Assembly (NCBI GenBank): GCA_039640505.1
Contig: CP046865.1
Span: 2,905,501 to 2,969,500, forward strand
Source of the DNA: Rhodobacteraceae bacterium Araon29
GTDB taxonomy: Bacteria; Pseudomonadota; Alphaproteobacteria; Rhodobacterales; Rhodobacteraceae
Reading direction: 5' to 3'
Length of the DNA stretch: 64,000 bases
Both the position numbers and the translations under genes were made by a program. Positions 10,759-30,234 of the stretch are shown in pieces. The notes beneath the pieces were generated by a model. It saw only the letters and a program-made list of their open reading frames with translations, was not told where the DNA came from and searched no databases. Position 1 is the first letter of the stretch. Each line of letters begins with the position of its first letter.

Positions 10759-13062
10759 ATGACTGATTTGATTGACGACCCCAATATGAGCGGAATTTCC
10801 GCCGAACCCCTGCGGCGCGCCATAGGCGAGCGCTATCTAACCTATGCGCTTTCCACAATTATGCACCGCGCGCTGCCTGATGCCCGTGATGGGCTTAAGC
10901 CGGTGCACCGGCGCATCCTTTATGCCATGCGCGAGCTTAAGCTCAATGCCAACGGCGGATTTCGCAAATCAGCCAAGATTAGCGGCGATGTGATGGGCAA
11001 TTATCACCCCCATGGGGATGCGGCAATTTACGATGCCATGGCGCGCTTGGCACAGGATTTTAATGTGCGCTACCCGCTGGTCGACGGGCAGGGCAATTTT
11101 GGCAATATCGACGGCGATAACCCGGCCGCCAGCCGCTACACCGAGGCGCGTATGACCACCGTTGCCGAAGCGCTGCTGGAAGGGCTCAATGAAAATGCCG
11201 TCGACTTTCGTGACAATTATGACGGCACGCTCACCGAACCTGTGGTTTTGCCGGCCAGCTTTCCCAATCTGCTGGCCAATGGATCAAGCGGCATTGCCGT
11301 GGGTATGGCCACTAATATCCCGCCGCATAATATTGCCGAGCTCTGCGATGCCTGCTTGCATTTAATCAAAACCCCCGAAGCGCGCGACGACACGTTGCTG
11401 AATTTCATCCCAGGACCTGATTTTCCCACCGGCGGGGTGATCGTGGAAAGCCCCGAGGCCATCGCAAGTGCCTATCGCACGGGGCGCGGATCGTTTCGCT
11501 TGCGCTGCCAGTGGCGCGTCGAAGACCTAGGCCGCGGCCAATGGCAGATTGTGGTCACGGAAATTCCCTATCAGGTGCAAAAATCCAAGCTGATCGAAAA
11601 AATTGCCGAAGTGATCCAGCTGAAGAAAATTCCGATCCTTGCGGATGTGCGCGATGAAAGCGCTGATGATATCCGGCTTATTTTAGAGCCCCGCTCGAAA
11701 AATGTGGATCCCGAGGTGCTGATGGGCATGCTGTTTCGAAATTCGGACCTTGAGATCCGCTTTTCGATGAACATGAACGTGCTGATTGATGGCCTAACGC
11801 CCAAGGTCTGTAGCCTTAAAGAGGTTCTAAAAGCCTTCCTTGATCATCGCCGCGATGTGCTGCTGCGCCGCAGTCAGCACCGGATCGACAAAATTGATCA
11901 CCGGCTTGAAGTGCTCGAAGGCTTTCTGGTGGCGTTTCTTAATCTTGATCGGGTGATTGATATTATCCGCTATGACGACGACCCCAAAGCCGCGCTAATT
12001 GCCGAAGACTGGAGTTTATCGCATCCACGGGCAATAAACGAAGACGATTATGTCGGTCCGGACACTACTCAAGAAGGCGAATTAAGCGAGCTGCAGGTTG
12101 AGGCTATTTTAAACATGCGGCTGCGCTCGCTGCGCCGGCTCGAAGAGCTTGAACTGACCCGTGAACGCGATGCGCTAATGCTGGAACGGGCCGATCTGCA
12201 AGATTTACTCGATCACACTAATTTGCAATGGGATAAAATTTCCGAGCAACTGAGAGCGACCAAGAAAACCTTTGGAAAAGACTATGAAGGCGGCGCGCGG
12301 CGCACGATCTTTACCGAAGCTGGCGAAATAGAAGAGGTGCCGCTTGAGGCAATGATCGACCGCGAGCCGATCACCGTTGTCTGCAGCCAGATGGGCTGGA
12401 TAAGGGCTATGACGGGACATATCGACCTGGCCCGTGAGCTAAAGTTCAAAGACGGTGACGGGCCGCGGTTTATTTTCCATGCTGAAACCACTGATCGGTT
12501 GCTGGTGTTTGCCAGCAATGGGCGTTTCTACACCCTATCGGCGGCCAACCTACCCGGCGGGCGCGGCATGGGCGAGCCACTAAGGTTAATGGTGGATTTG
12601 CCCAATGAGGCCGAGATTATAGATATCTTCATCCACAAACCCGGGCGCAAGCTGCTTGTGGCTTCAACCTCGGGTGACGGGTTTGTTGTGCCTGAAGACG
12701 ATGTGCTGGCCCAGACCCGCAGCGGCAGACAGGTGCTGAACGTACGCGGCGATGTAAGCGCCAAAAGCTGTCGCCCGATCCAAGGCGATCATGTGGCTGT
12801 TGTGGGAGAAAACCGCAAAATGCTGGTGTTTGCGCTGTCCGAGCTGCCCGAAATGGGACGCGGTAAAGGTGTTCGGCTGCAAAAATACAAAGACGGCGGC
12901 ATGAGCGATGTCGCAACCTTTGATTTGGCTGCAGGGCTTAGCTGGCTTGACCCAGCGGGCCGCACCCGCACCGAAACCGAACTGGCCGAATGGACATCGA
13001 AACGCGCAAGCGCGGGTAAAATGGCGCCGCGCGGTTTCCCGCGCGATAACAGGTTTACTTAA
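10759..13062 (+). CDS. parC: DNA topoisomerase IV subunit A
   Basis: 767-aa ParC. The catalytic tyrosine is Tyr127 in [13 protein letters not shown], with the quinolone-resistance region around [19 protein letters not shown]. The N-terminal winged-helix/tower domain is followed by a coiled coil ([20 protein letters not shown]) and a shortened C-terminal beta-propeller. It decatenates daughter chromosomes together with ParE, which is not in the window. The ParC rather than GyrA assignment rests on length and on the reduced C-terminal domain. Confidence 0.93.
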
Positions 13063-13113
13063 ACGGGAAACTATGCACTAATTTCTCCATAAAGTGATCA
13101 ATGGAAATGAATT

Positions 13114-14283
13114 ATGCAGACGGATAAGATTTACTTTGCCTATGGCAGTCAAGATGGTGAGCTTTTTAAAATAGCGTTGAAAACCGGCATTTTAACGATG
13201 ATCACGCTCGGAATTTACCGGTTTTGGGCCAAAAGCAGAATACGGCGACATATCTGGTCTTCTGCCTCTATCGGTGAGGATAGGTTTGAGTATCATGGAA
13301 CCGGATTAGAAAAATTCCTAGGGTTTCTAATCGCGATTGTTGTTTTGGCAATCTACCTTGGGTTAGTGCAGTTAATCCTGATTTACTTTGGCCTAAACTT
13401 GTTCCAGATGACCGATGATCCCGCTCAGGTCTTTGCGCAAACCGCCGCCATTTACTTAAACCTGCTCGCAGTTTTGCCACTGGCAGCTTTCGCAACCTAC
13501 CGTGCTAGACGCTATAAATTGGCCCGCACATCATGGCGTGGTATCAGGTTCGGCATGGATAACGGTGCATGGGGATACGTGTGGCGATATCTTTTCTATA
13601 GCCTCCTTACGCTTGTCAGTTTGGGCGCTCTGATGCCGCTTGCAACCTTTAGACTTGAAAAATACATGGCTGACCGGAGTTTTGTTGGCGATGCACCCAT
13701 CGCGCAAAACGGCAAGTGGGCTGAACTTTACCCGTCAATGAAATATATCTTTTTTGGCGTACTGTGTGTCCTCGGAGCAGTTGTCATCGCATTCGGAGCA
13801 ATAAAAATTGGCATCATTGCCGGATTTTTGGGCTGCATTGTTCTTGTTTGCGGGCTCGTCCACTATAATGTTCAATCCTTTGCTTATCTAATGACGCATA
13901 AAACACTTAATAAAACCGTGGGGTTTAGCGCCACTCCGAGAACAAAGCGCATTTTAGCGACCTATATTCTTGGCGGCATCGTTGTTGGCCTGATAACAGG
14001 TATTTTTGGTGCTGTGTTTGGCGGAATATCATTTACACTTTTTTCGGTTGGAAACGCGAGTACTTTAGGTTTCTTGTTCACAGGTCTGACTTATCTAGGG
14101 TTTTTTGTGCTAGCAAACGCTCTGTCGCTCATCATGATCACCCAGCCTATTCTTGAGCACATGTTTTCCTCAATTACTGTTCACAATAGCTCTGATTTAG
14201 AGAAAATTTTCCAAACTGTTCGAAGATCGCCAGCAGATGCAGAGGGCTTTGCCGATGCGCTTGACATAGGGGGCGCTTTTTGA
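13114..14283 (+). CDS. DUF898 (YjgN-like) membrane protein
   Basis: 389-aa integral membrane protein of the DUF898/YjgN family, with about eight hydrophobic segments. Family signatures are LGIYRFWAKSRIRRHIWSS near the N-terminus and the Tyr/Arg-rich loops FATYRARRYKLARTSWRGI and QSFAYLMTHKT. Its function is unknown. The next gene, an M48 protease, starts inside its stop codon (TTGA overlap), so the two are co-translated; this pairing is recurrent in Rhodobacterales and suggests they act together on the membrane. Confidence 0.8.
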   Translation: MQTDKIYFAYGSQDGELFKIALKTGILTMITLGIYRFWAKSRIRRHIWSSASIGEDRFEYHGTGLEKFLGFLIAIVVLAIYLGLVQLILIYFGLNLFQMTDDPAQVFAQTAAIYLNLLAVLPLAAFATYRARRYKLARTSWRGIRFGMDNGAWGYVWRYLFYSLLTLVSLGALMPLATFRLEKYMADRSFVGDAPIAQNGKWAELYPSMKYIFFGVLCVLGAVVIAFGAIKIGIIAGFLGCIVLVCGLVHYNVQSFAYLMTHKTLNKTVGFSATPRTKRILATYILGGIVVGLITGIFGAVFGGISFTLFSVGNASTLGFLFTGLTYLGFFVLANALSLIMITQPILEHMFSSITVHNSSDLEKIFQTVRRSPADAEGFADALDIGGAF

Positions 14284-15416
14284 GCGATACGGTAAAGGGC
14301 CGCTTTCATGACGGTATTTCGGCAAAATCTCATCAGGTAAGCGTTACCCATAAAAGCAATGGACAAGAACTTAAGATCACCGGCCCAACTTTACAGGCGG
14401 CGATTTACTGGCCACTTGCCGATATACGCGCTGCGCAAAAGCAAGGCCGGGAAAAAACCACAATCCTGTTTTTGGACGCAACCGCAGACGCAGCAGCTCA
14501 AAATGACAGCGGACGGCTGATTATTGAGGGTACAGAGGCACAAAACCTGCTCAGCGAAATGCCCAATCTATATCTTAAAAAGACCAAAAGGTCAGATCTG
14601 CGCAAAGCGTTGGTCCGCAGTGTAATCGCACTTGGATCTCTTGCGGCGATTTTACTACTGATCCTGCCAAGTTTAGCTCTTATTCTTGCCGAGGCTCTGC
14701 CAATTAAGCGCGAGGCGGCGCTCGGTCAGACAGTAATGAAGCAAATTGAACTGCTATTTAGTATTGAAAGCGATGACCCGTTTATCTGCGAAACAGATAA
14801 AGGGCGGCGAGCTTTGGACAAAATGACGGCGAAAATACTGTCTGGAGAAAAGCTAGATTATGACTTGCGGGTGCTGGTCACACGTCACGATATGCTAAAT
14901 GCTTTTGCATTGCCCGGTGGTATTATTCTGCTAACCAACGAGCTTATCCAAAGCGCTGATACACCAGAGGAACTGGCTGGCGTTTTGGCCCATGAACTTG
15001 GGCATGTGGTGGCACGCGATCCGCTTCGGGCCTTGATATACTCTGCCAGTACCGCCGGAATTCTGTCGCTTGTGGTCGGCGATTTTAGTGGCGGTACACT
15101 GGTCTATATACTTGCAGACCAAGCTCTCAACGGGTCCTATTCTAGACGTGCTGAGCGGCACGCTGACGCATTTTCTATAGAAAAACTGCAACATGGAGAA
15201 ATTGATCTAAAAGGCTTTGAGCGGTTTTTTGAACGTGTTGAGGAATTAGCGCCAGATTTTCTTGAAAATTTTAGCTATATTTCAACCCATCCACCGACCG
15301 CCGAACGCCGCGTGGCAATTGCAACTGCGGCGCGGCACCAATCCACGGTCAAACCGGTTTTAAGCGCCGCTGAATGGCAATTGATCAAAGCTATGTGCAA
15401 AAAAAAAGACGGGTGA
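14280..15416 (+). CDS. M48 family zinc metalloprotease
   Basis: 378-aa membrane-anchored peptidase. The zinc site is HELGH (LAHELGHVVARDP), and the third ligand lies probably in RAERHADAFSIEKL. A hydrophobic segment (about residues 112-135) precedes the catalytic domain, and an N-terminal soluble domain of about 100 residues comes first. TTG start overlapping the upstream stop. Probable role in membrane-protein quality control as in HtpX/LoiP relatives (inference). Its stop abuts the convergent tauC stop at a 12-bp palindrome, GGGTGATCACCC. Confidence 0.85.
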   Translation: MSDTVKGRFHDGISAKSHQVSVTHKSNGQELKITGPTLQAAIYWPLADIRAAQKQGREKTTILFLDATADAAAQNDSGRLIIEGTEAQNLLSEMPNLYLKKTKRSDLRKALVRSVIALGSLAAILLLILPSLALILAEALPIKREAALGQTVMKQIELLFSIESDDPFICETDKGRRALDKMTAKILSGEKLDYDLRVLVTRHDMLNAFALPGGIILLTNELIQSADTPEELAGVLAHELGHVVARDPLRALIYSASTAGILSLVVGDFSGGTLVYILADQALNGSYSRRAERHADAFSIEKLQHGEIDLKGFERFFERVEELAPDFLENFSYISTHPPTAERRVAIATAARHQSTVKPVLSAAEWQLIKAMCKKKDG

Positions 15417-16751
15417 TCACCCCCGCCCTTTCCAAGGCACCATGATCCGCTCGGCCCAGCGCATCAGCATATCAATGCCAAAGCCGATGATCCCAATAAG
15501 GATAATGCCCAAGATAACGATATCCGTCTGCTGGAATTTTGAGGCCACCATGATCATCATACCAGCGCCTTTTTCCGCCGCCACAAGTTCTGCCGCCACC
15601 ACTGTGCCCCAGCACACGCCCATGGCCACCCGCGCGCCGGTAAAGATTTCCGGCAGGCTGTTGGGAATAATCACATAGCGCATAATCTGCCATTTGCTCG
15701 CGCCCAGAGAATAGGCCGCATGAACTTTCGAGATTTTGACCCCGGACACCCCAGCCCGGGATGCAATGGCCATAATCCAAAGTGCGGCGAGGAACAGCAA
15801 AATCACTTTGCCGACCTCGCCAATTCCGGCCCAAATAATCACCAGCGGGATCAGGGCAAGCGGCGGGACAGGCCGCATAAACTCTACAATCGGATCAAAC
15901 CACCCGCGAAACCAATCGGACAAGCCCATGGCATAGCCCAAAGGTATGCCCACCATGGCGCCAATTAAAAATCCGACCACAACCCGAAACAGAGAAAAGC
16001 CCAGATGTTCGAGCAGCGGGAAATTTTTGAACCCTCCGGTTGATATCTCGATGAGCCGTCTCCAGACCGCCTCGGGCGATGGCAACCAGATCGGCTCCAT
16101 TTGCCAGCCTTTGTTAGGCTCGATGTTCAACGTGCCTTTGGGCGTCACTGCAACCCGCAAATCATCAAGATAGACCGATTCGCCCTTTGCAATCGGTTGG
16201 CCGTTGATCGCAACAACCTTGGCCCCCGATTTGCGGGTTTCATCATCGTTTTTATCCCATTTTAGCAATTTTGTTCGATAGGCTTTGACCGCCATGACAT
16301 CATTTTTGGCAACGCCATCACCGAGGTCAATCTCGGGCAATTTCACATCTTCCCCGATGCCATGCACGATGACCTGAACAGTGGCATCATCGCGCAGGCC
16401 ACTATCGGTTTCCGCCGTATAGGTAAATTCGGTTTCGCCTTGAAAGGCACCGGGCATATGAAGAAAGGCAGGTATAATCTTTGATCCGGTGAATGACCCC
16501 CAGAAAATCAAAATCAGCACGATGGACACAATAGAGGCTGCAAAATTTGAACTTACAGCGCTTTCATCACCGAATGTCACGGTTTTCAAAGAGCCAAAAT
16601 CCTGCTTGGGCGTGAGAAGCCGTTTCACCACCCTCCAAACAAAGAGGGTAAGAAGAATTAAGCCTATATAACCGGCGATATAGGGCACCGCCGAGGCTAG
16701 AATAACCAGGATGGACCACAGTTCTTGGGAGAGTTTGACCAATACTTCCAT
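15417..16751 (-). CDS. tauC: Taurine ABC transporter permease with N-terminal extension
   Basis: 444-aa permease; ordinary TauC/SsuC proteins are near 260-290 aa. The C-terminal about 230 residues form the usual permease with the EAA-type loop (AAYSLGASKWQIMRYVIIPNS) that contacts the ATPase. The N-terminal about 190 residues add two membrane segments (about 18-45 and 68-90) enclosing or followed by a hydrophilic, probably periplasmic domain of beta-rich character (EFTYTAETDSGLRD onward). The gene overlaps tauB by 1 bp and is last in the tauABC unit. Taurine as substrate is inferred from tpa, tauR and xsc next door. Confidence 0.85.
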   Translation of the reverse strand: MEVLVKLSQELWSILVILASAVPYIAGYIGLILLTLFVWRVVKRLLTPKQDFGSLKTVTFGDESAVSSNFAASIVSIVLILIFWGSFTGSKIIPAFLHMPGAFQGETEFTYTAETDSGLRDDATVQVIVHGIGEDVKLPEIDLGDGVAKNDVMAVKAYRTKLLKWDKNDDETRKSGAKVVAINGQPIAKGESVYLDDLRVAVTPKGTLNIEPNKGWQMEPIWLPSPEAVWRRLIEISTGGFKNFPLLEHLGFSLFRVVVGFLIGAMVGIPLGYAMGLSDWFRGWFDPIVEFMRPVPPLALIPLVIIWAGIGEVGKVILLFLAALWIMAIASRAGVSGVKISKVHAAYSLGASKWQIMRYVIIPNSLPEIFTGARVAMGVCWGTVVAAELVAAEKGAGMMIMVASKFQQTDIVILGIILIGIIGFGIDMLMRWAERIMVPWKGRG

Positions 16752-17557
16752 CAGACCGCTGCCTCCGTACGTCCCATGATCTCTTCTTCCATATTCCAGA
16801 TCATTTCCAAAATCTCTTCGCGTTTTTCGCCATAGTCAGCGTGCTTTTTAATTTCGCGCAGGTCCGCATCGACGCCAAGGTCAGCAAACGGCAGACGATA
16901 TTCGCGGTGAATACGGCCCGGGCGCGGCGCCATCACCAAAAGCCGTTCGCCAAGCAGCAAAGCCTCTTCCACCGAATGGGTGATCAAAATGATGGTTTTG
17001 CCGGTCTCTTTCCACAGTTTCAAAACCAGTGACTGCATTTTTTCACGCGTCAGCGCATCGAGCGCGCCCAGCGGCTCATCCATCAAAATGACATCGGGGT
17101 CATTGGCCAGACAGCGGGCCAAAGCGACCCTTTGCTGCATGCCGCCAGAAAGTTCATATACAGCTTTATCCTTAAAATCCTGAAGCCCAACCACATCCAA
17201 CAGATGATCAACTTTTTCGCGGGCTTGCGCAGCGCTGATACCTTTCATCCGTGGGCCAAAGCCGACGTTTTCGCGCACGTTCATCCATTCAAACAGCGCA
17301 CCTTGTTGAAACACCATGCCGCGCTCGGCGCTAGGGCCAACAACCTTTTCACCATTGAGTAAAATTTCACCCTGAGTTGGCGCAAGAAAGCCGGCAACAA
17401 TATTAAGCAATGTGGTTTTGCCGCAGCCCGAGGGGCCCAAAACCGACATTAATTCACCCGCTTTTAGATCGAGTGTAACATCCTTAAGCGCTTGGACCCA
17501 ATCACCGTTTGGCAAATCAAAGCGCATGGATATATTTTGGATGGACAGTCCAGACAT
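16751..17557 (-). CDS. tauB: Taurine ABC transporter ATPase
   Basis: 268-aa ABC ATPase. Walker A GPSGCGKTTLLN, Q loop in FQQGALFEW, signature LSGGMQQRVALA, Walker B VILMDEPLGALD and switch His in LITHSVEEA are all intact. The family is that of nitrate/sulfonate/taurine importers. ATG 17557, with AAAGGCGG upstream, is chosen over the longer reading frame beginning at 17620, which would overlap the intergenic hairpin region. It couples ATP hydrolysis to TauC. Confidence 0.9.
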   Translation of the reverse strand: MSGLSIQNISMRFDLPNGDWVQALKDVTLDLKAGELMSVLGPSGCGKTTLLNIVAGFLAPTQGEILLNGEKVVGPSAERGMVFQQGALFEWMNVRENVGFGPRMKGISAAQAREKVDHLLDVVGLQDFKDKAVYELSGGMQQRVALARCLANDPDVILMDEPLGALDALTREKMQSLVLKLWKETGKTIILITHSVEEALLLGERLLVMAPRPGRIHREYRLPFADLGVDADLREIKKHADYGEKREEILEMIWNMEEEIMGRTEAAV

Positions 17558-17623
17558 GGCCGCCTTTCTCTTCCTACTTTTAGTGGAGACAATTTCAAAT
17601 GAAACGAAACATTGGCGCATCCC

Positions 17624-17645
17624 GCGGGCCGGCGAACCGGCCCGC
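17624..17645 (-). promoter_or_regulatory. Stable intergenic stem-loop between tauA and tauB
   Basis: Perfect 9-bp GC stem with a four-base loop that reads TTCG on the transcribed strand, located 11 bp after the tauA stop. There is no T run, so it is more likely a 3' stabiliser or partial attenuator that lets the binding-protein message accumulate over the membrane components than a full terminator. Confidence 0.7.
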
Positions 17646-17655
17646 AGTCGTTTAC

Positions 17656-18663
17656 TTACATACCGTGAGCGGTTTCCAGTGGGCCTGTGTTGACGTTGCC
17701 AACATAGCTATCCAGTGCTGAATCGATGCTGCCGGCGTTCACAAAGACGTCTGCAACGCCTTTCATGAATTCCTGCGCACCGCCGCCAAGCCATGTTGCA
17801 GACAATTGGCTGTCAACCGTTGGGAACACAAATGTTGCCATTGTATCCGCTGTTGCAGCCTCATCCATACCGGCGTCCTTGGCAATCGCAGGAAGCATCA
17901 TCGCATGGTTGGAAGAGTCTGCCCACATTGCGTTGGCATCGGCTGTAATCTTGAGGAATTTGGCAACCAGATCACTGTTTTCAGCAACCCAACCCGCAGG
18001 GCCAGAGGTTACGTCAAACACCAAAATACCAAGCTCGGTTTTTTCATCACCGGTCAGAAGGATGTTACCATACTCTTTGGCGCGGCGCAGCGAACCACCC
18101 CAGCCACAGAACATGTCAACAGCGCCATTGCCAATCGCCGCCGCACCATCCGGCGGATCCATGTCCACAACTTCCATGCTGCCAACATCAACGCCAAAAT
18201 GGCTCATTTGCTTGAGGAAGCCGTAGTGGGCCGCTGTGCCCAAAGGTACAGCCACTTTCTTGCCTGCCAGTTCGGCAGCGCTGTCTTTGTCAATTTCAAG
18301 ATCGCTTCTGACAACGCAGTTGTCGTTGTCCGCGTAGCTCACAGCAACATCCAGAATTTGCAAGTCTTGACCGGCTGATGTTGCAACCACGAAAGGTGGA
18401 ACACCTTGGCTAACGGATAGGTGCACATCACCCGAGGCCATCGCCGCCGACATTTTCACACCGGACTCAAAGCTGACCCAGTTCACTTTGACGCCAAGCT
18501 CTTCGTCATAAGTGCCCATTTGCTTTGCATATTCAAATGGCATTGGCCACTCAAGGAAATAGGCCACGGTGATTTCACCATGTCCACCGGCAAACGCAGC
18601 CTGCGCGCTGAGTGCCATGGTGGTGCCGGCAACAGCGCCCATTAGTTTCGATTTCATCGACAT
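17656..18663 (-). CDS. tauA: Taurine-binding periplasmic protein
   Basis: 335-aa solute-binding protein of the sulfonate/nitrate/taurine class. A signal peptide occupies about the first 25 residues (ending AQAAFAGG). The fold motifs include VSQGVPPFVVA, LAGKKVAVPLGTAAHYG and VDMFCGWGG. It delivers substrate to TauC. It is first in the tauABC transcript, read away from tpa across a 383-bp divergent control region. GGAG lies upstream of the ATG. Confidence 0.9.
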   Translation of the reverse strand: MSMKSKLMGAVAGTTMALSAQAAFAGGHGEITVAYFLEWPMPFEYAKQMGTYDEELGVKVNWVSFESGVKMSAAMASGDVHLSVSQGVPPFVVATSAGQDLQILDVAVSYADNDNCVVRSDLEIDKDSAAELAGKKVAVPLGTAAHYGFLKQMSHFGVDVGSMEVVDMDPPDGAAAIGNGAVDMFCGWGGSLRRAKEYGNILLTGDEKTELGILVFDVTSGPAGWVAENSDLVAKFLKITADANAMWADSSNHAMMLPAIAKDAGMDEAATADTMATFVFPTVDSQLSATWLGGGAQEFMKGVADVFVNAGSIDSALDSYVGNVNTGPLETAHGM

Positions 18664-19046
18664 TTATATACTCCCGTTGTTTGCCTCACAATTGAGGCGC
18701 CTTCCTTCTGCCAACAGGGCAGAATTTCTGTGCTCGCCACCATAGGGGCAAGCCTGCTTTGCAATCCGACCCGATAAGATGATTCCGATCAACGATTATT
18801 TTCAGCGTTGACCATTTTGAACATTCCCTTTTGAGTCATAATTGGAAATTAGTGTTTTATTTTTATTAATAGATTCCAAACAGTTAATCATATTTCCCAG
18901 CATAAATCATCGAAAATCTCAATATTTTGGACTTAAATCTAATATAAATCTGGACCTATCTGGAAGTGCAAATAATAGGCTTGACTGGATTCAAAGATTC
19001 TATGCGCAGGGGTATTGCACTCCCGCCACAACTTAAGGGTGAAAAA
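18664..19046. promoter_or_regulatory. Divergent tauA/tpa control region
   Basis: 383 bp with no gene, clearly AT-rich in 18780-18970. It must hold promoters for tauABC (minus) and tpa (plus). A TTGACT hexamer at 18981-18986 is a possible -35 for tpa, but no good -10 at the right distance was found. Confidence 0.6.
18927..18969 (+). promoter_or_regulatory. Probable TauR operator (direct repeats)
   Basis: Direct repeats TTGGACTTAA (18927) and CTGGACCTAT (18950), start to start 23 bp, followed at once by CTGGAAGTGC (18960). From memory these resemble the CTGGACYTAA boxes described for TauR at tpa promoters of related phototrophs. The cluster ends 11 bp before the TTGACT hexamer, as expected for a MocR-type activator. 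Confidence 0.6.
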
Positions 19047-20435
19047 ATGGACGGCAACATTCGTGAAAACGACCTGTCAAAAATTGTCGATGCAGACCGA
19101 GATCATATTTGGCATCACCTCATTCAGCACAAGCCGTTTGAAACCAGCGAGCCAAGGATCATTGTCGAAGGCAAAGGGATGCGGGTTTGGGACCAGAACG
19201 GCAAAGAGCATCTTGATGGGGTGTCCGGCGGTGTATGGACGGTAAATGTTGGCTATGGCCGCGAAAGCATTGCCAATGCAGTGCGCGACCAGCTGATAAA
19301 GCTGAATTACTTTGCCGGCTCGGCCGGCTCAATCCCCGGCGCCACTTTTGCCGAGCAGCTGATTGATAAAATGCCGGGAATGCACCGGGTTTATTATTGC
19401 AATTCGGGCTCTGAGGCGAATGAGAAAGCCTTTAAAATGGTCCGCCAGATCGCCCATAAACGCTATGGCGGCAAGAAACATAAAATTCTGTATCGCGACC
19501 GCGATTATCACGGCACGACCATTGGCACTCTGTCCGCCGGTGGTCAGGATGAACGCAATGCGCAATACGGGCCATTTGCGCCCGGGTTTATCCGCGTGCC
19601 GCATTGTTTAGAATATCGTGCCCAATGGGATTTAACCGGCGAAGCCTACGGCAAACGCGCCGCCGATGCGATCGAAGAGGTGATCTTGGCCGAGGGCCCC
19701 GATACGGTCGGCGCGCTCTGCCTTGAGCCGGTGACGGCAGGCGGCGGTGTCATCACCCCGCCCGAAGGCTATTGGGACAGGGTGCAAGAAATTTGCAAGA
19801 AATATGATATCCTGCTGCATATAGACGAAGTGGTCTGCGGCGTTGGCCGCACGGGCACTTGGTTCGGCTACCAAAATTATGGCGTCAAGCCGGACATGGT
19901 CACCATGGCCAAAGGCGTGGCTTCGGGCTATGCGGCGATTGCCTGTCTGGTCACCACAAATGATGTTTTTGACATGTTCAAAGACGATGCCAGTGATCCA
20001 ATGAATTATTTCCGCGATATATCCACCTTTGGTGGCTGTACAGCGGGGCCGGCGGCAGCAATTGAAAATATGCGCATCATCCAAGACGAAGGCCTGTTGG
20101 AAAACACACTGGCTATGGGCGACCGGATGATCGAAAACCTCAATGAACTCGCTGAAAAGCACGCCATCATCGGACAAGTGCGTGGTAAGGGGCTGTTCTG
20201 CGGCGCCGAACTGGTCAGTAACCGCGCCAGCAAAGAGCCAGCGCCAGAAAAACAAGTTCAGGCTGTGGTCGCGGACTGTATGGCGCAAGGTGTGATCATC
20301 GGTGCCACCAACCGTTCTTTGCCGGGGCTCAACAACACCCTTTGCTTTAGTCCAGCGCTGATCTCGAGCGCGGATGACATTGATCAGATCACCGATGCCG
20401 TGGACCAGGCGCTTACGCGCGTCTTTGGCGGTTAA
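19047..20435 (+). CDS. tpa: Taurine-pyruvate aminotransferase
   Basis: 462-aa class III PLP-dependent aminotransferase. The PLP lysine is Lys289 in DMVTMAKGVASGY, the phosphate-binding stretch is CNSGSEANEKAFKM, and the PLP-ring Asp lies in LLHIDEVVCGVGRTG. It converts taurine plus pyruvate to sulfoacetaldehyde plus alanine in the cytoplasm. The start ATG 19047 has TTAAGGG upstream; the frame is open from 18966, but that start would sit in the operator region. Specificity for taurine rather than another omega-amino acid follows from tauR, xsc and tauABC around it. Confidence 0.92.
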   Translation: MDGNIRENDLSKIVDADRDHIWHHLIQHKPFETSEPRIIVEGKGMRVWDQNGKEHLDGVSGGVWTVNVGYGRESIANAVRDQLIKLNYFAGSAGSIPGATFAEQLIDKMPGMHRVYYCNSGSEANEKAFKMVRQIAHKRYGGKKHKILYRDRDYHGTTIGTLSAGGQDERNAQYGPFAPGFIRVPHCLEYRAQWDLTGEAYGKRAADAIEEVILAEGPDTVGALCLEPVTAGGGVITPPEGYWDRVQEICKKYDILLHIDEVVCGVGRTGTWFGYQNYGVKPDMVTMAKGVASGYAAIACLVTTNDVFDMFKDDASDPMNYFRDISTFGGCTAGPAAAIENMRIIQDEGLLENTLAMGDRMIENLNELAEKHAIIGQVRGKGLFCGAELVSNRASKEPAPEKQVQAVVADCMAQGVIIGATNRSLPGLNNTLCFSPALISSADDIDQITDAVDQALTRVFGG

Positions 20436-20544: not shown

Positions 20545-20626
20545 TCTAGAGTATCGGAACAACTGTGCGCGCTTTTTGGAATAATACCAGTTTGCCAAAC
20601 CTATAGAGCCAGTTTAAACTACCGGT

Positions 20627-22080
20627 ATGGCTATTCCCATAGAAACATTTTTCCTTGAAGCAAACGAGCTGGGCACGCTGCAGGCCCGCATTCAGCAGAT
20701 GATCGCAAACGGGATTCTATCTGGTAGGTTTCTGCAGGGCGAAAAGCTGCCCTCGACACGAAGGCTCGCCATGCACCTCGGGGTTAGTAGAATTACAGTA
20801 ACACTGGCCTACACAGAACTGCTGGCAAATGATTATCTGATTTCAAAAGGCCGCTCGGGCTATTTTGTATCGCCGAACGCACCGGAACCGCCAAAATTTG
20901 AACACCGCCCGCAAACCGAAGACCGCGTGGATTGGAGCCGCGCAATCGGGCAGCGGTTTTATGACGACAGTTGGCTCGACAAACCGGAAGATTGGGCGCA
21001 GTATAAATACCCATTTATCTATGGCCAAACTGACCCCACGCTGTTTGACCATGCCAATTGGCGACTGTGTGCTTTACAAGCATTAGGGGCTAAGGATTTT
21101 CCGGCGCTGACAGCTGATTATTTTGATCGCGATGACCCGCAACTGCTTGAATTTATTGCCCGCCACACATTGCCCCGACGTGGAATTATAGCAGGCACAG
21201 ATGAAATCTTGGTCACGCTTGGAGCGCAAAATGCACTTTGGCTGGCCACTCAGGTGCTGCTTACACAGCGGCGTACTGCGGTTATAGAAAACCCATGCTA
21301 TCCGGCGCTGCGCGGTATTTTGCACCAGTCCCGCTGCCATATTACAGCAATTGATGTAGATGATTTTGGCCTGCCGCCAGATGATATCCCCCCGAAAGCA
21401 ATGTTATTTTTGCCACCCCAAGCCACCAATGCCCAACCACGGCCACGATGCCCTTGGCTCGGCGCAAAGATCTGCTGGACCGCGCCCGTGAGTTGGACGC
21501 GCTGATTATCGAAGATGACTACGAGTTTGAGATGTCCTTTTTAAAACCGCCCTCGCCTGCGCTCAAATCGCTCGATCAGGACGGGCGAGTGATTTATGTT
21601 GGCTCGTTTTCAAAATCTTTATTCCCTGGTCTAAGGCTTGGCTATCTTGTCGGGTCGGCTCCCTTCATCCGAGAAGCCCGAGCGCTGCGCGCCAGCGTGC
21701 TGCGCCACCCCCCCGGTCATATTCAGCGTACGGCGGCCTATTTTTTGAGCCTTGGGCATTACAATTCCCTGATCAAACGGATGGGCAAAACCTACCAAAA
21801 GCGCAGCACCGTCATGGAGCAAGCAATCCAAAACTGCGGCTTGAAAATCGCCGGAAAAGGCTCACACGGCGGCTCATCATTTTGGATGCAAGCGCCCAAA
21901 GGCACAGATACAGCGGAGCTTGCGATTCGGCTGCGCGACGAGAGTATTCTAATAGAATCGGGCCAGAAATTTTTTGCCGGTGGAACTGCGCCCCACGAAT
22001 TTTACCGGCTGGCTTATTCTTCAATTCCCACTGATCGCATTGCCCAAGGTATTGAGAAAATAGCCGCAGCAATAGGTTGA
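20627..22080 (+). pseudogene. tauR: TauR, MocR-type regulator, frameshifted
   Basis: GntR/MocR regulator: N-terminal winged helix (GEKLPSTRRLAMHLGVSRITVTLAY) plus a class I aminotransferase-like domain with the PLP lysine region YVGSFSKSLFPGLRLGY. In related bacteria TauR activates taurine genes. The frame running from 20627 leaves the family sequence near 21410 and stops at 21505. The next frame resumes at once with ATPSHQCPTTATMPL and continues to 22080. The break maps to the T5 run 21407-21411, as a one-base loss or two-base gain. Everything else is intact, so a recent mutation or a sequencing error are both possible. Confidence 0.85.
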
Positions 22081-22081
22081 T

Positions 22082-22131
22082 CTGGCTATATGCTGACTTG
22101 CGATCTGGCCCTAACGGTGCACTGGTCTAGC
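22082..22131 (+). promoter_or_regulatory. Possible TauR operator upstream of xsc
   Basis: CTGGCTATAT (22082), CTGGCCCTAA (22105) and CTGGTCTAGC (22122). The first two are 23 bp apart, the same spacing as at tpa, and the second matches the CTGGACYTAA-type box at 9 of 10 positions. It ends 72 bp before the xsc start. Confidence 0.45.
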
Positions 22132-22203: not shown

Positions 22204-23979
22204 ATGAAAATGACCACAGAAGAAGCCTTTATCAAAACTCTTCAAATGCATGGCATTGAACATGCCTTTGGAATTATCGGTTCCGCTTTTATGCCGATTT
22301 CCGATCTTTTCCCCCAAGCCGGCATTACATTTTGGGACTGTGCACATGAGGGCTCTGGCGGCATGATGGCCGATGGCTACACACGGGCCTCTGGTAAAAT
22401 GAGCATGATGATTGCCCAAAACGGCCCCGGCATTACCAATTTCGTCACCGCAGTAAAAACCGCATATTGGAACCACACGCCGCTGCTGTTGGTCACCCCG
22501 CAGGCGGCCAATAAAACCATTGGCCAGGGCGGCTTTCAAGAGGTCGAGCAGATGGCCCTTTTCAAAGATATGGTCGCCTATCAAGAAGAGGTACGCGATC
22601 CATCACGTGTGGCAGAAGTTCTCAACCGTGTGATCGCCAATGCAAAGCGCGCCTCGGCGCCGGCGCAAATTAACATGCCGCGTGATTACTGGACCCAAGT
22701 GATTGATATCGATCTGCCCGAAATGATCGACTACGAGCGGCCAGCCGGTGGTGACAGCGCGCTGCAACAGGCTGCCGACCTGCTCAGCAGCGCAAAAAAC
22801 CCCGTAATCCTAAACGGCGCAGGTGTTGTGCTGGCCGATGCCATTGGCGACACCATGAAACTGGCCGAGCGTCTGGATGCACCGGTCTGTGTTGGCTATC
22901 AACACAATGATGCCTTCCCCGGATCGCATCCACTTTTTGCCGGACCATTGGGCTATAATGGCTCAAAAGCCGGTATGGAGCTAATATCGAAAGCGGATGT
23001 GGTACTGTGTCTGGGCACAAGGCTTAATCCGTTTTCCACCCTGCCCGGTTACGGCATTGATTACTGGCCCAAAGAGGCCAAGATCATTCAGGTTGATATC
23101 AACCCCGACCGCATTGGGCTGACCAAAAAAGTATCAGTTGGGATCATTGGCGACGCCAAACATGTGGCGAATTCACTGCTTGAGCGCCTTTCAGACAGTG
23201 CAGGCGACAGCAGCCGCACCGAGCGCAAGGCCGCCATTGCCCAGACCAAATCACAATGGGCGCAGCAACTGTCCAGCATGGATCACGAAGATGATGATCC
23301 CGGCACCTCTTGGAATCAGCGGGCGCGGGACGATAAACCCGAGTGGATGAGCCCACGCATGGCCTGGCGCGCCATTCAAAGCGCTCTGCCCAAAGAGGCT
23401 ATTATCAGCTCGGACATTGGCAACAACTGTGCGATCGGCAATGCTTATCCTACTTTTGAGACAGGGCGCAAATATCTTGCTCCCGGGCTTTTTGGTCCCT
23501 GTGGCTATGGTTTGCCAGCCATCATCGGTGCCAAAATTGGCTGCCCTGATACGCCTGTTGTCGGCTTTGCCGGCGATGGTGCCTTCGGCATCGCCGTGAC
23601 AGAATTGACGGCCATTGGCCGCTCAGAATGGCCGCCCATCACCATGATCGTGTTCCGCAATTACCAATGGGGCGCCGAAAAGCGTAACTCAACGCTGTGG
23701 TATGATGATAATTTTGTGGGCACAGAGCTAGATACCCAAGTCTCTTATGCCGGTATTGCCAATGCCTGCGGGTTGCAAGGGGTGCAGGCACACACAATGG
23801 AAGAATTGCGCGACGCGCTGAACACAGCAATCACGGATCAGATGAAAAACGGTAAAACCACCTTGATTGAAGCCTTGATCAACCAAGAACTGGGCGAGCC
23901 GTTCCGCCGTGATGCGATGAAAAAGCCTGTTGCAGTGGCGGGCATTTCAGCATCCGACATGCGTGTGCAACAGGCCTGA
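22204..23979 (+). CDS. xsc: Sulfoacetaldehyde acetyltransferase
   Basis: 591-aa thiamine-diphosphate enzyme that turns sulfoacetaldehyde plus phosphate into acetyl phosphate plus sulfite. The N-terminal pyrimidine-binding domain carries the catalytic Glu in CAHEGSGGMMADGYTRASG. The C-terminal pyrophosphate domain has GDGAFGIAVTELTAIGRSE and the ThDP-binding Asn near FRNYQWGAEKRNS. Length is normal for Xsc. GGAG is upstream of the ATG. The pta gene begins 4 bp after the stop, so the pair is one transcript. Confidence 0.95.
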   Translation: MKMTTEEAFIKTLQMHGIEHAFGIIGSAFMPISDLFPQAGITFWDCAHEGSGGMMADGYTRASGKMSMMIAQNGPGITNFVTAVKTAYWNHTPLLLVTPQAANKTIGQGGFQEVEQMALFKDMVAYQEEVRDPSRVAEVLNRVIANAKRASAPAQINMPRDYWTQVIDIDLPEMIDYERPAGGDSALQQAADLLSSAKNPVILNGAGVVLADAIGDTMKLAERLDAPVCVGYQHNDAFPGSHPLFAGPLGYNGSKAGMELISKADVVLCLGTRLNPFSTLPGYGIDYWPKEAKIIQVDINPDRIGLTKKVSVGIIGDAKHVANSLLERLSDSAGDSSRTERKAAIAQTKSQWAQQLSSMDHEDDDPGTSWNQRARDDKPEWMSPRMAWRAIQSALPKEAIISSDIGNNCAIGNAYPTFETGRKYLAPGLFGPCGYGLPAIIGAKIGCPDTPVVGFAGDGAFGIAVTELTAIGRSEWPPITMIVFRNYQWGAEKRNSTLWYDDNFVGTELDTQVSYAGIANACGLQGVQAHTMEELRDALNTAITDQMKNGKTTLIEALINQELGEPFRRDAMKKPVAVAGISASDMRVQQA

Positions 23980-23983
23980 TAAA

Positions 23984-25009
23984 ATGGGCACAGCAGACAT
24001 TAGTGGGTCTCTGCCTGCGGCTTCGGCCGCAGCGCAGGTGGTCAAGCTAGCTTCTGCTGCGCGCCCAATTATTGCCCTGAGCGAAGGCACAGACCCCCGC
24101 GTGGTTGCCGGCGCGGTTGCGGCTCAAAGCGCCGGAATAGCCGATATCGTTCTCATTGGTCCCCGCTCTGATGTGCACCGCGTCCTGTCTGCGGCGGGCG
24201 GCCAGGAAAGTGATAGCATGGCGATCCATGATCCAGTGGGATCTGAGCAAAAAGCCGAACTGGCCAAGACGTTTTACCAATTGCGCAAACATAAGGGCAT
24301 GACGCCTGAGGTAGCCACCAAGGCGGTGCAAGATCCTTTGATCTATGCAGCGCTATTGGTACATCTTGGGCAGGCCCATGGCACGGTGGGCGGCGCGGTT
24401 GCAACCACATCCAATGTGGTGCGCGCGGCGCTTCAAGTCATCGGAAAAGCCCAAAATGCCGCGATGGTTTCAAGCTGTTTTTTAATGTTTCCACCGCACA
24501 GCTATCCCATGGTGTATTCAGATTGCGGCCTAGTGATTGACCCTGATGCACATGAGCTTGCCGAGATTGCCATAATGGCCGCACAGTCCTGCCGTGATCT
24601 GCTTGGCGATACTCCAAAGGTGGCGATGCTGTCCTTTTCTACTAAGGGCAGCGCGGCGCATAAATCTGTTAGCAAAGTGCAGCAGGCAACCGAGATGGTT
24701 CAAGCCGCGCAGCCCTCTTTAAAAGTTGATGGGGAGCTCCAATTTGATGCGGCTTTCGACGCAGACGTCGGGGCGGCCAAAGCAGCCGGCTCAGCCGTTG
24801 CAGGACGCGCCAATGTGATGGTCTTTCCAAACTTGGACGCCGGAAATATCGGCTATAAAATCACCCAGCGGCTGGGCGGCGCAACCGCCATTGGCCCGAT
24901 TTTGCAAGGGCTGGCGAAACCGGCCAATGATCTGTCACGCGGCTGCACCGGCGAGGATGTGACGCAAATGATTGCGGTGACTGTATTGCAGCATCTGGGA
25001 TCGCTATAA
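23984..25009 (+). CDS. pta: Phosphate acetyltransferase
   Basis: 341-aa Pta of the short PTA_PTB type. It converts the acetyl phosphate made by Xsc to acetyl-CoA, linking taurine carbon to central metabolism. Family features are ALSEGTDPRVVAGA, VVGGAVATTSNVVRAALQVIG, MVYSDCGLVIDPDAHELAEIA, MLSFSTKGSA and FPNLDAGNIGYKITQRLGGA. ATG 23984 follows the xsc stop by 4 bp; the frame is open further upstream only inside xsc. No acetate kinase gene is nearby. Confidence 0.93.
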   Translation: MGTADISGSLPAASAAAQVVKLASAARPIIALSEGTDPRVVAGAVAAQSAGIADIVLIGPRSDVHRVLSAAGGQESDSMAIHDPVGSEQKAELAKTFYQLRKHKGMTPEVATKAVQDPLIYAALLVHLGQAHGTVGGAVATTSNVVRAALQVIGKAQNAAMVSSCFLMFPPHSYPMVYSDCGLVIDPDAHELAEIAIMAAQSCRDLLGDTPKVAMLSFSTKGSAAHKSVSKVQQATEMVQAAQPSLKVDGELQFDAAFDADVGAAKAAGSAVAGRANVMVFPNLDAGNIGYKITQRLGGATAIGPILQGLAKPANDLSRGCTGEDVTQMIAVTVLQHLGSL

Positions 25010-25034
25010 TGGCCTATTGCCCCAGTTCAATCCG

Positions 25035-25784
25035 ATGAGCACTTTGCTTAATCTGCCAGACCATCAATTCTGGCTTGTCATCCTGATTTGCTTATTGGCC
25101 GGGATTGTGCGCGGGTTTTCCGGATTTGCGCTCTCGGCGCTGGTGATGGCATCTGCGGCGCTGATTATTCCACCCATCGAGCTTATACCTGTGTGCTGGT
25201 GGCTTGAGCTATGCGCTGGATTGATGATGATCCGCGGCGGCTGGAAAGAAGCAGATCGGCGCTTGGCGATCACGCTTGTTGTTGGCTCCAGCCTTGGGAT
25301 GCCGCTCGGGCTTTATCTGACCACCCAAGTATCGGTTCCACTTTCTCAGACCCTTGCGCTAGGCTGTATCGCTACTTTGGCAGCCTTACTTTTAGGTAAG
25401 ATAAAGCTTGATTTTCTGGCCAATCCAAAAGGGCACTTGGGGGTTGGCGTGTGCGCTGGTATCGCCACCGGACTGGCCAGTGTTGGCGGTATGGTGGTTG
25501 CGCTATTTGTGCTGGTCAGCAATGTACCCGCGCGGCAAATGCGCGCGACATTAGTGGTTTTTCTTCTTTTGTCCGGGGTCTTATCTCTTATCATATTGAT
25601 TGCTTTTGGCGTGATGGATGAACGCGCTGCCCTACGCGGCGTCATTCTATCTATTCCCGCCACATTGGGGGTGTATTTGGGAACAAAATTCTTTATCCCA
25701 AGGCTGGAACCCTTCTACCGTCCCTTTTGCCTTCTGCTTTTGATTGGCTTGGCATTAATGGGACTTATACGAATTGGACTATAG
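25035..25784 (+). CDS. TauE/SafE family sulfite or sulfonate exporter
   Basis: 249-aa membrane protein with about seven or eight hydrophobic segments and the duplicated TauE/SafE pattern: GFSGFALSALVMASA in the first half, ATGLASVGGMVVALF in the second. Set between pta and soeA, it probably exports sulfite released by Xsc when oxidation is saturated. An in-frame TTG at 25017 is an alternative start. Direction and substrate are inferred from context and family. Confidence 0.8.
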   Translation: MSTLLNLPDHQFWLVILICLLAGIVRGFSGFALSALVMASAALIIPPIELIPVCWWLELCAGLMMIRGGWKEADRRLAITLVVGSSLGMPLGLYLTTQVSVPLSQTLALGCIATLAALLLGKIKLDFLANPKGHLGVGVCAGIATGLASVGGMVVALFVLVSNVPARQMRATLVVFLLLSGVLSLIILIAFGVMDERAALRGVILSIPATLGVYLGTKFFIPRLEPFYRPFCLLLLIGLALMGLIRIGL

Positions 25785-25814: not shown

Positions 25815-28619
25815 ATGAAATCACAGCCATCTTTAGACACCTCTCCAAAAGTGTCAGACGAGATACGCAAAACAACCTGTTATATGTGCGCCTGCCGGTG
25901 CGGCATAAATGTCCATATGAAAGAAGGACAAGTTGCCTATATCGAAGGCAACCGCGATCACCCGGTCAATCAAGGTGTTCTTTGCGCCAAAGGCAGCGCC
26001 GGCATCATGCAGGTCAATGCCCCCTCGCGGCTGCGCGCACCGCTCAAACGGGTGGGGCCTCGCGGCTCGGGCCAGTTTAAAGAAATCAGCTGGGATGAAG
26101 CGCTTGATATGGCTGTCGGCTTGCTAAGACCGGTGCGTGAGGAAAATCCCGAAAAGCTGGCGTTCTTTACAGGCCGTGATCAGTCACAGTCCTTTACCAG
26201 TTTCTGGGCGCAGAATTTTGGCACCCCGAATTATGCCGCACATGGCGGATTTTGTAGCGTGAATATGGCCGCTGCGGGCATTTACACAATGGGCGGGGCG
26301 TTTTGGGAATTTGGCCAGCCCGACTGGGATCACACCAAGCTGTTCATGCTGTTTGGCGTGGCAGAAGATCACGACAGTAATCCGATTAAAATGGGCATCG
26401 GTAAAATAAAAGCCCGCGGCGCAAAGGTGATCGGCGTTAATCCCATTCGCTCAGGGTATAATGCGGTGGCCGACGATTGGATAGGGATTACCCCGGGCAC
26501 CGATGGGCTGTTTATTCTGGCGCTGGTGCATGAGCTGCTGAAAGCTGGTAAAATTGATCTAGACTATCTGGCTCAATACACCAATGCACCCGTTTTAGTG
26601 GATGCAGAAACCGGTTTGTTGCTGCGTGACGGCGATGGCAAACAGCTGGTAGTTGACCGCGTGACCGGCGCGTTGACGGCCTTCGACCAAAAAGGCGTTC
26701 GCCCTGACCTTCGGGGCACGCATAGTGATGGCGCATTGACCCATCGCAGCGTCTTTCAACATATGATAGAGCGCTATCTCGACCCTGAATATGCCCCCGA
26801 AGCGGTTAGTGAAAAGACCGGCATTTCTGCTGGCAAAATCCGCGCGATTGCGGCCGAGCTTGCCCGTGTGGCCTTTGACGAAGCCTTTGAGCTGGATCAG
26901 CCCTGGACAGATTTTCGCGGTGAGCGGCATGAAAAAATGGTCGGCCGTCCGGTCAGCTTTCATTCCATGCGCGGCATCTCGGCCCATTCCAACGGGTTTC
27001 AAACCTGCCGCGCCCTGCATATTCTGCAAATTATACTTGGTACGGTCGAAGTGCCCGGCGGCTTTCGCTTTAAGCCGCCCTATCCCAAGCCATCAGAGAT
27101 CCATCCAAAGCCGCATTGCAAAGTAACCCCGGGGGCCCCGCTGGATGGCCCGCATTTAGGCTTTGTGCACGGACCCGAAGATCTGGCGCTGAAAGACGAT
27201 GGCAGCCCGGCCCGCATTGATAAAGCGTTCACCTGGGAAAACCCCATGTCGGCCCATGGGCTGATGCATATGGTGATCTCAAACGCACATGCCGGTGATC
27301 CCTATAAAATCGACACGCTGTTCATGTATATGGCCAATATGTCATGGAACAGCTCGATGAACACCAGCGGCGTGATCGAGATGCTCACCGATACGGATGA
27401 TAGCGGCAATTATGTGATCCCGAACATCATCTATTCGGATGCCTACTCGTCCGAAATGGTGGCCTATGCGGATCTGGTTCTGCCTGACACCACCTATCTT
27501 GAACGGCATGATTGTATCAGCCTGCTCGACCGGCCGATTTGCGAAGCTGATGCGGCCGCCGACGCCATCCGCTGGCCGGTGGTCGAGCCGGACCGCGATG
27601 TGCGCGGCTTTCAGTCGGTGCTATGCGATCTTGGAGCGCGGCTAAATTTGCCCGGCTTTGTGAATGAAGACGGCAGCCAGAAATATGATGATTATGCCGA
27701 TTATATCGTGAACCATATCCGCAAACCCGGCATCGGGCCACTGGCCGGATTTCGTGGCAATGGCAATAAAGCAGGGCGCGGGGATGTGAACCCTGATCAG
27801 CTTGATCGCTATATCCAAAATGGCGGGTTTTTTGTGGAACATATTCCAGCAGGGGCAAACTATTATAAACCCTGGAATATGGATTATCAAAACTGGGCCG
27901 TGGGCATGGGCCTTTATGACAGCCCGCAGCCCTATCTGTTTCAGCTTTATGTGGAACCGATGCGCAAATTCCAACGCGCTGCAGAAGGCCATGGCGACCG
28001 TCAGCCGCCCGATCATCTGCGCGCGCGCATCAAATCAACCCTTGACCCATTGCCGATCTGGTACCCGCCGTTTGAAGACAGTCATGTTGACCCCGATGAA
28101 TACCCTGTTCATGCGCTGACCCAGCGGCCAATGGCCATGTACCACAGCTGGGGCACGCAAAATGCATGGCTGCGCCAAATCCATGGGGTAAACCCGCTTT
28201 ATCTGCCCACCAAACTGATGCGCGCACATGATTTGCGCGATGGCGATTGGGCCAAAGTCAGCTCGGCGCATGGGGATATCACTGTGCCGGTGATGGAAAT
28301 GGCCGCTCTAAATGAAAATACCGTCTGGACATGGAACGCCATTGGCAAACGCAAAGGCGCGTGGGCGCTTGATGAAAAAGCCCCCGAGGCGACCAAAGGC
28401 TTTTTGCTCAACCATCTGATCCATGAGCTGTTGCCGGCCAAAGGCGACGGTTTGCGCTGGGCAAACTCAGATCCCATCACCGGTCAGGCCGCGTGGTTTG
28501 ACCTAAGGGTCAAGATTGAAAAATCCACTGCACCGCCGGAAAGCCAACCAAGCTTTGACGCTCTTATATCCCCTGTCGGGCAAGGCCCAGAAACATTAAG
28601 GTGGAAGGTAGGCAAATGA
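25815..28619 (+). CDS. soeA: Sulfite dehydrogenase (quinone) molybdopterin subunit SoeA
   Basis: 934-aa molybdopterin oxidoreductase. An N-terminal [4Fe-4S] site has Cys22-x2-Cys25-x3-Cys29-x27-Cys57. Cys147 in HGGFCSVNM is a candidate molybdenum ligand (inference). The C-terminal molydopterin-dinucleotide-binding domain carries LRDGDWAKVSSAHGDI. No Tat signal is present, so the enzyme faces the cytoplasm, as known for SoeABC. Next to xsc it oxidises the sulfite released from taurine to sulfate and passes electrons to quinone through SoeB and SoeC. A polysulfide or thiosulfate reductase of the same family is less likely in this context. Confidence 0.88.
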   Translation: MKSQPSLDTSPKVSDEIRKTTCYMCACRCGINVHMKEGQVAYIEGNRDHPVNQGVLCAKGSAGIMQVNAPSRLRAPLKRVGPRGSGQFKEISWDEALDMAVGLLRPVREENPEKLAFFTGRDQSQSFTSFWAQNFGTPNYAAHGGFCSVNMAAAGIYTMGGAFWEFGQPDWDHTKLFMLFGVAEDHDSNPIKMGIGKIKARGAKVIGVNPIRSGYNAVADDWIGITPGTDGLFILALVHELLKAGKIDLDYLAQYTNAPVLVDAETGLLLRDGDGKQLVVDRVTGALTAFDQKGVRPDLRGTHSDGALTHRSVFQHMIERYLDPEYAPEAVSEKTGISAGKIRAIAAELARVAFDEAFELDQPWTDFRGERHEKMVGRPVSFHSMRGISAHSNGFQTCRALHILQIILGTVEVPGGFRFKPPYPKPSEIHPKPHCKVTPGAPLDGPHLGFVHGPEDLALKDDGSPARIDKAFTWENPMSAHGLMHMVISNAHAGDPYKIDTLFMYMANMSWNSSMNTSGVIEMLTDTDDSGNYVIPNIIYSDAYSSEMVAYADLVLPDTTYLERHDCISLLDRPICEADAAADAIRWPVVEPDRDVRGFQSVLCDLGARLNLPGFVNEDGSQKYDDYADYIVNHIRKPGIGPLAGFRGNGNKAGRGDVNPDQLDRYIQNGGFFVEHIPAGANYYKPWNMDYQNWAVGMGLYDSPQPYLFQLYVEPMRKFQRAAEGHGDRQPPDHLRARIKSTLDPLPIWYPPFEDSHVDPDEYPVHALTQRPMAMYHSWGTQNAWLRQIHGVNPLYLPTKLMRAHDLRDGDWAKVSSAHGDITVPVMEMAALNENTVWTWNAIGKRKGAWALDEKAPEATKGFLLNHLIHELLPAKGDGLRWANSDPITGQAAWFDLRVKIEKSTAPPESQPSFDALISPVGQGPETLRWKVGK

Positions 28620-29362
28620 CCGAACTGCCAGCGACAACAAACCGCCAGCTAGGATTAGTAATTGATCTTGATACCTGTGTCGGCTGTCATGCCTGTGTGA
28701 TTAGCTGTAAAGGATGGAATACGGAAAACTATGGCGCGCCGCTGAGCGATCAAAGCGCCTATGGCGCTAATCCAAGCGGCACCTTTCTAAACCGCGTCCA
28801 TTCTTATGAGGTGCAGCCGCCAGAGGGCGCTGCACAGCTTGTGCATTTTCCGAAATCCTGCCTGCATTGCGAAGATGCCCCCTGCGTGACGGTCTGCCCG
28901 ACCGGCGCCAGTTACAAGCGGGTCGAGGACGGTATTGTTCTGGTCAATGAAAGCGACTGCATTGGCTGCGGACTTTGTGCTTGGGCCTGCCCCTACGGCG
29001 CACGCGAGCTTGATGCCGCAGAAGGGGTGATGAAGAAATGTACGCTTTGTGTGGACCGGATCTATAACGAAAACCTGCCCGAAGAAGACCGCGAGCCCGC
29101 CTGCGTGCGGACCTGCCCGGCCGGGGCGAGGCACTTTGGGGACTTTGCAGATCCTGAAAGTAACGTTAGCGTTCTAACAGCCGAGCGTGGGGGCATGGAC
29201 CTTATGCCGGAACAAGGAACAAAGCCGGTGAACAAATACCTGCCCCCTCGGCCCAAGGACCAACTCGGAGACATTGACATTCTTGCGCCACTGCTTAAGC
29301 CTGTGGCGGAAGAACCCAAAGGCTTTATGGCCTGGCTTGATAAAACCCTGGAGACCCGCTGA
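28616..29362 (+). CDS. soeB: Sulfite dehydrogenase iron-sulfur subunit SoeB
   Basis: 248-aa ferredoxin-type subunit with four cysteine clusters: CVGCHACVISC, CLHCEDAPCVTVC, CIGCGLCAWAC and CTLC plus CVRTC, enough for four [4Fe-4S] centres. It carries electrons from SoeA to the membrane subunit. Its ATG overlaps the soeA stop by 4 bp. No twin-arginine signal. Confidence 0.9.
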   Translation: MTELPATTNRQLGLVIDLDTCVGCHACVISCKGWNTENYGAPLSDQSAYGANPSGTFLNRVHSYEVQPPEGAAQLVHFPKSCLHCEDAPCVTVCPTGASYKRVEDGIVLVNESDCIGCGLCAWACPYGARELDAAEGVMKKCTLCVDRIYNENLPEEDREPACVRTCPAGARHFGDFADPESNVSVLTAERGGMDLMPEQGTKPVNKYLPPRPKDQLGDIDILAPLLKPVAEEPKGFMAWLDKTLETR

Positions 29363-30234
29363 TGCATCCCGCCCCATCCGTGATTATTTTCACCTCACTC
29401 TCCGGTCTTGGCTTTGGGCTTTTGACATTCCTAGGCTTCGGGATGCCGCCACCAACCGGATTTATGGCCTTTGGCTTTTTTACTGTTGCTTATCTGCTTG
29501 CGGTGGGCGGGCTATTGGCATCAACCTTTCACCTCGGTCATCCAGAGCGTGCGCTGAAAGCTTTCACCCAATGGAAAACCAGCTGGCTCAGCCGTGAGGC
29601 GTGGCTTTCCGTTGGCGCGCTGCTGGTGATGGCCGCCTACGGCGCAGGCCTTGTCTTTTTTGGTATTGCGGTTGCCCCTCTGGGCTGGCTCGGCGCGATT
29701 TTGTCACTGGCGACGGTGTTTGCCACCTCAATGATATATGGCCAGTTGAAAACAGTGCCGCGCTGGAACACGAGACTAACGCCGCTTTTGTTTCTAACGC
29801 TGTCTTTGGCCGGCGGCGGCCTGTTGTCTGGTCAGATCAGCTCAGCTTTGATGCTGCTGATGGCGGCCGGCATCGTACAGATTGCCTACTGGATTACCGG
29901 TGATCGGGCTTTGGCGCAAAGCGGCACATCGCTGGCCAGCGCCACCGGACTTGGTGAGATCGGCACTGTGCGCGCTTTTGAGCCGCCGCATACAGGCACC
30001 AACTATCTGCTGAAGGAATTTGTCCATGTGGTGGGACGCAAGCATGCCTCAAAGCTGCGGATCATTGCGCTTATTTTGATGATCGGAACGCCGGTGGCAC
30101 TGCTATCAATACCGTTCACCCATTGGATTGCACTGGTGGCCGTGATTGCCCATGTGGCGGGGCTTTTCGTCTCACGCTGGCTGTTCTTTGCCCAAGCCGA
30201 ACATGTGGTCGGGCTCTATTACGGCAAACGCTGA
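29362..30234 (+). CDS. soeC: Sulfite dehydrogenase membrane anchor SoeC
   Basis: 290-aa DmsC/NrfD-like membrane protein with about eight transmembrane helices; it should bind ubiquinone and anchor SoeAB to the inner membrane. Conserved points include STFHLGHPERALKAFTQWK near the N-terminus and the Lys/His-rich KEFVHVVGRKHASKLR before the last helices. Start overlaps the soeB stop (TGATG). Last gene of the taurine/sulfite block; a shared terminator follows. Confidence 0.87.
   Translation: MHPAPSVIIFTSLSGLGFGLLTFLGFGMPPPTGFMAFGFFTVAYLLAVGGLLASTFHLGHPERALKAFTQWKTSWLSREAWLSVGALLVMAAYGAGLVFFGIAVAPLGWLGAILSLATVFATSMIYGQLKTVPRWNTRLTPLLFLTLSLAGGGLLSGQISSALMLLMAAGIVQIAYWITGDRALAQSGTSLASATGLGEIGTVRAFEPPHTGTNYLLKEFVHVVGRKHASKLRIIALILMIGTPVALLSIPFTHWIALVAVIAHVAGLFVSRWLFFAQAEHVVGLYYGKR

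Follow-up and report, generated by a model that had tools for sequence, protein, structure and literature searches.

In the window (the whole 64,000-nucleotide stretch of DNA analysed), a normal taurine locus has a single gene for a MocR-type activator, tauR, and this gene changes reading frame at a run of C residues (21388-21393). We consider the chances about even that this reflects a very recent loss of one base, private to this genome, which shortened the run from C7 to C6. The site and its surroundings are listed in Table 1. Be it an ordinary regulator lost very recently or an error left in the sequence, the break is unremarkable.

Table 1. Features of the taurine locus and of the tauR frame break, in window coordinates.
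Feature	Coordinates	Strand	Remarks
tauABC, taurine transporter genes	15417-18663	-	tauC 15417-16751, tauB 16751-17620, tauA 17656-18663; intact
TauR operator upstream of tpa	18927-18959	+	TTGGACTTAA-N13-CTGGACCTAT; two direct boxes 23 bp apart
tpa, taurine-pyruvate aminotransferase	19048-20435	+	likely start ATG 19048
Candidate TauR operator upstream of tauR	20587-20612	-	CTGG-N18-CTGG; arrangement shared by 68 of 80 relatives
tauR, first frame	20627-21505	+	292 aa; GntR-type winged helix (residues 19-81) and start of aminotransferase-like domain
C6 run, site of frame change	21388-21393	+	C7 in same-species MAG, CCTCCC in same-genus genome
tauR, second frame, read from C run	21394-22080	+	228 codons; most of aminotransferase-like domain
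T5 run	21407-21411	+	named in the preliminary description; not the switch site; same in same-species copy, within true frame (ESNVIFATPSHQ)
tauR, second frame, first-ATG version	21448-22080	+	210 aa
Candidate TauR operator upstream of xsc	22082-22114	+	CTGGCTATAT-N13-CTGGCCCTAA; arrangement shared by 45 of 78 relatives
xsc, pta and TauE-family exporter	22204-25784	+	xsc 22204-23979, pta to 25009, exporter 25017-25784; all open frames
Window indels against same-species MAG			tauR C run; T run at 55245; 42892 (outside listed long ORFs); 38421 (in-frame)

The open reading frame list gives tauR (20627-22080) as two overlapping open frames. An N-terminal GntR winged helix was recognized in the first (PF00392, E 3e-13, residues 19-81) and an aminotransferase class I/II-like domain in the second (PF00155, E 1.4e-12), while the first frame carries out-of-frame sequence from about residue 257 to its end at 21505. 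The predicted PLP lysine codon, placed by its SFSKS motif, lies at 21613 and corresponds to K330 of the intact relative. The best NCBIfam scores of both halves were to MocR-type regulators, and the PdxR profile was covered in complementary parts (2-222 by the first frame, 226-447 by the second); one MocR-type gene is therefore split. The preliminary description, made from the letters alone, had proposed just such a division: it assigned the winged helix to the first frame and the aminotransferase domain to the other, took the rest of the taurine locus to be intact, and gave 484 residues for the continuous product. These points are confirmed by the domain matches, by the open frames of all surrounding genes and by the two closest relatives, both of which have 484 aa. 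TauR belongs to the MocR subfamily of GntR regulators and carries its two domains in one continuous frame; here the frame changes at 21388-21393. The locus is tauR by descent but, as sequenced, encodes no complete TauR.

Two-frame overlap alone cannot fix the switch point, as any point in the overlap fits, and relatives alone locate it. The two frames do overlap across the T5 run, which makes that run one possible place by sequence alone, and it was there that the preliminary description had set the switch. However, when the DNA was aligned with the same-species copy (L007) and the same-genus copy (L008), the window was one column short at the C run, 14-19 bases upstream of the T5, and showed no gap at the T run. 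The same-species copy reads DDIPPESNVIFATPSHQ, and its T5 is identical to that of the window. The single-column gap at the C run means that the KAMLFL segment, read in the first frame from the C run to the T run, is already out of frame. A T6 or T3 at the T run would also give a single frame, but with the wrong residues: KAMLF, which matches no relative, in place of the xxVIF-type motif. We thus accord a switch at the T5 practically no credence, and the read check over 21400-21420 that had been suggested, with its expectation of six T or three, was aimed at the wrong bases. More generally, a frame switch is not placeable by eye.

The relatives also show how restricted the break is. We found and examined 80 loci encoding relatives, a count that includes two (L043 and L057) which run off contig ends without a stop. 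All 80 have one frame through the site, with residues of the xxVIF(T/A)TPSHQ type, and the break is therefore private to this genome. The exact site was also sought in viral contigs, with no match. The same-species copy, with DNA 99% identical, lies on PBSX01000111.1, contig C77 of the Marinovum sp. NP76 MAG (G001), where the tauC-to-pta gene order and the operator upstream of tpa are identical to those of the window; the MAG differs in having C7, and with it a single 484-aa tauR frame, where the window has C6. Once joined, the two halves match the same-species protein at all but 2 of 484 residues, and dN/dS, although calculated from few changes, is 0.054 for the first part and 0.106 for the second, like that of neighbouring genes. 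These low values and the two differences imply that the break, if real, is very recent, and on the same evidence we rejected an old pseudogene.

Even with the base missing, some full-length TauR might be made through -1 ribosome slippage or RNA polymerase slippage on the C6, a possibility we hold to be improbable. The heptamer C CCC CCG stands in frame at 21388-21394, and a -1 slip there would bring the codons that follow back to ESNVIFATPSHQ, as in relatives, restoring the ancestral residues. The tract is, however, unconserved, being CCTCCC in the same-genus genome and no run at all in most relatives; every relative is read in a single ordinary frame; and folding of the RNA downstream is no stronger than in shuffled sequence (z = -0.11). 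These same three features led us to reject a gene with programmed ribosomal frameshifting, and a search of the literature on C CCC CCG as a slippery heptamer returned nothing specific. Slippage there, if any, would be a by-product, perhaps amounting to low-level leakage, as opposed to a programmed device. More improbable still is that the C6/C7 tract serves as a slip-prone switch within the species, through phase variation at replication or through -1 slippage in translation, which would make the taurine activator heterogeneous or leaky.

A far stronger alternative is an isolated consensus error, in which the strain has C7, as does its same-species relative, and an intact 484-aa TauR, and the assembly dropped one C; we put this at somewhat less than an even chance. 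Two points count for it and against a true mutation. Firstly, the only decay is a single base at a homopolymer, with purifying selection in both halves and with operators and targets intact, which is also what a consensus error would look like. Secondly, among the five G/C7 runs that could be aligned with the same-species MAG, two are shorter in this genome and none is longer. These two are the tauR run and a run at L118:13576 (about 1,489,576 in the genome), which is G6 here and G/C7 in the MAG and lies outside long frames.

The wider comparison with the MAG weighs in the other direction. The genome is a single contig of 3,659,197 bases with an estimated completeness of 99.98%. The alignment of the window with the MAG spans 49.3 kb, is about 98.5% identical and contains only four indels (Table 1). 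From a sample of about 0.86 Mb from each of the two genomes, forty 20-kb stretches of this genome compared with 60 MAG contig stretches contributed a further 154 kb, bringing the total alignment to 203.7 kb. Each indel in the 154 kb was judged individually from the open frame on each side. Those in long frames were few, and either the MAG frame was the shorter, or the indels formed local compensating sets, were in-frame or summing to in-frame, or lay beside N's in the MAG. Across the 203.7 kb, no other gene was clearly broken in this genome alone. Nor was there a general excess of coding indels over this length, which tells against an error. None of 143 G/C5 runs and none of 17 G/C6 runs differed, which likewise tells against it. 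G/C7 runs occur at 25 per Mb here and at 24 per Mb in the MAG, and homopolymer-linked swaps between two long frames, mostly ordinary gene junctions, number 44 per Mb against 51. Equal G/C7 density and the lack of excess homopolymer frame breaks argue against a systematically poor assembly. The broader candidate, a generally indel-ridden assembly, is unsupported across the 203.7 kb. As a separate observation, the indel at 38421 is an in-frame 12-base change of repeat unit (GAAGCA/CCTGCA repeats).

The setting of the gene is that of a known system. Like TauR of Rhodobacter capsulatus and Sinorhizobium meliloti, the two halves combine a wHTH with a fold-type I aminotransferase-like domain, and the gene adjoins tpa and xsc; unlike them, it loses its frame within the aminotransferase-like domain. 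The neighbours tauABC, tpa, xsc, pta and tauE are those of reported TauR regulons, and the operator is of the direct-repeat type described for R. capsulatus. R. capsulatus TauR binds direct repeats of CTGGACYTAA (PMC5320631), and such repeats are present at the taurine genes of the window, upstream of tpa, where they are conserved in both nearest genomes and constitute the sole strict-pattern match genome-wide. The longest tpa frame begins at the listed GTG 18966, 7 bases past this operator; the ATG at 19048 is the likelier start. Upstream of tauR and xsc, looser CTGG pairs recur among relatives (Table 1) far above the shuffle expectation of fewer than one relative, which makes both probable TauR sites; the xsc-upstream boxes are unchanged in the two nearest genomes. 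The pairs are probably additional TauR operators, conserved in many Rhodobacteraceae. Whatever befell the regulator, its target sites survive. A second TauR copy was sought in the 3.66-Mb genome and none was found. The one other MocR-type relative, at G000:C1:767032-768312, shares 25-36% identity, and its gene points away from a neighbouring class III aminotransferase gene of its own.

If the C was truly lost, as in the reading we prefer, slipped-strand replication would most likely have converted the C7 tract to C6. The product would be a 292-aa protein that retains the DNA-binding domain but under half of the aminotransferase-like one. In MocR proteins, the domain binding the effector also makes the head-to-tail dimer (PMC5320631), and a TauR truncated in this way, with neither the PLP lysine (codon 21613) nor most of the effector/dimer domain, should not respond to taurine. 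tauABC, tpa and xsc-pta would then be uninducible or nearly so. The frame break, its position, its restriction to this genome, the intact surroundings and the operators are shown, but we infer both that the base is missing from the chromosome and that activation is lost. TauR acts as an activator (PMC4254191, PMC5320631), and in S. meliloti neither induction nor growth on taurine survives an in-frame deletion of tauR (PMC4254191). For an activator, a silent pathway is thus to be expected if the break is real. The preliminary description had posed the alternatives of an inactivated activator or a faulty sequence, which our results uphold, and had allowed for a constitutive, silent or newly controlled pathway. 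By analogy with the characterized activator (PMC4254191), silence is favoured among these outcomes and constitutive expression appears unlikely.

Beyond this genome, the break has little import. If real, it would make the strain a natural tauR null with intact targets and operators, handy for gauging the TauR dependence of taurine use in marine Rhodobacteraceae. Were it an error, it would caution against calling the regulator a pseudogene from this assembly.

Two neighbouring segments may be mentioned. Downstream, 25815-30234 holds three ORFs: a putative molybdopterin-type oxidoreductase of 934 aa, a putative ferredoxin-type protein of 253 aa and a further one of 290 aa. With names read from translations, they resemble the bisC/hybA/dmsC set of TauR regulons in some Rhodobacterales (PMC5320631). 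On the other side, tauC is separated from a gyrase/topoisomerase A gene by about 2.35 kb (13062-15416) with two plus-strand ORFs, for a DUF898 protein of 389 aa and an M48 peptidase with DUF7092 of 378 aa. Only some 70 bases occupy this position in G001 and G002, and the segment is either an insertion here or a loss in those two genomes.
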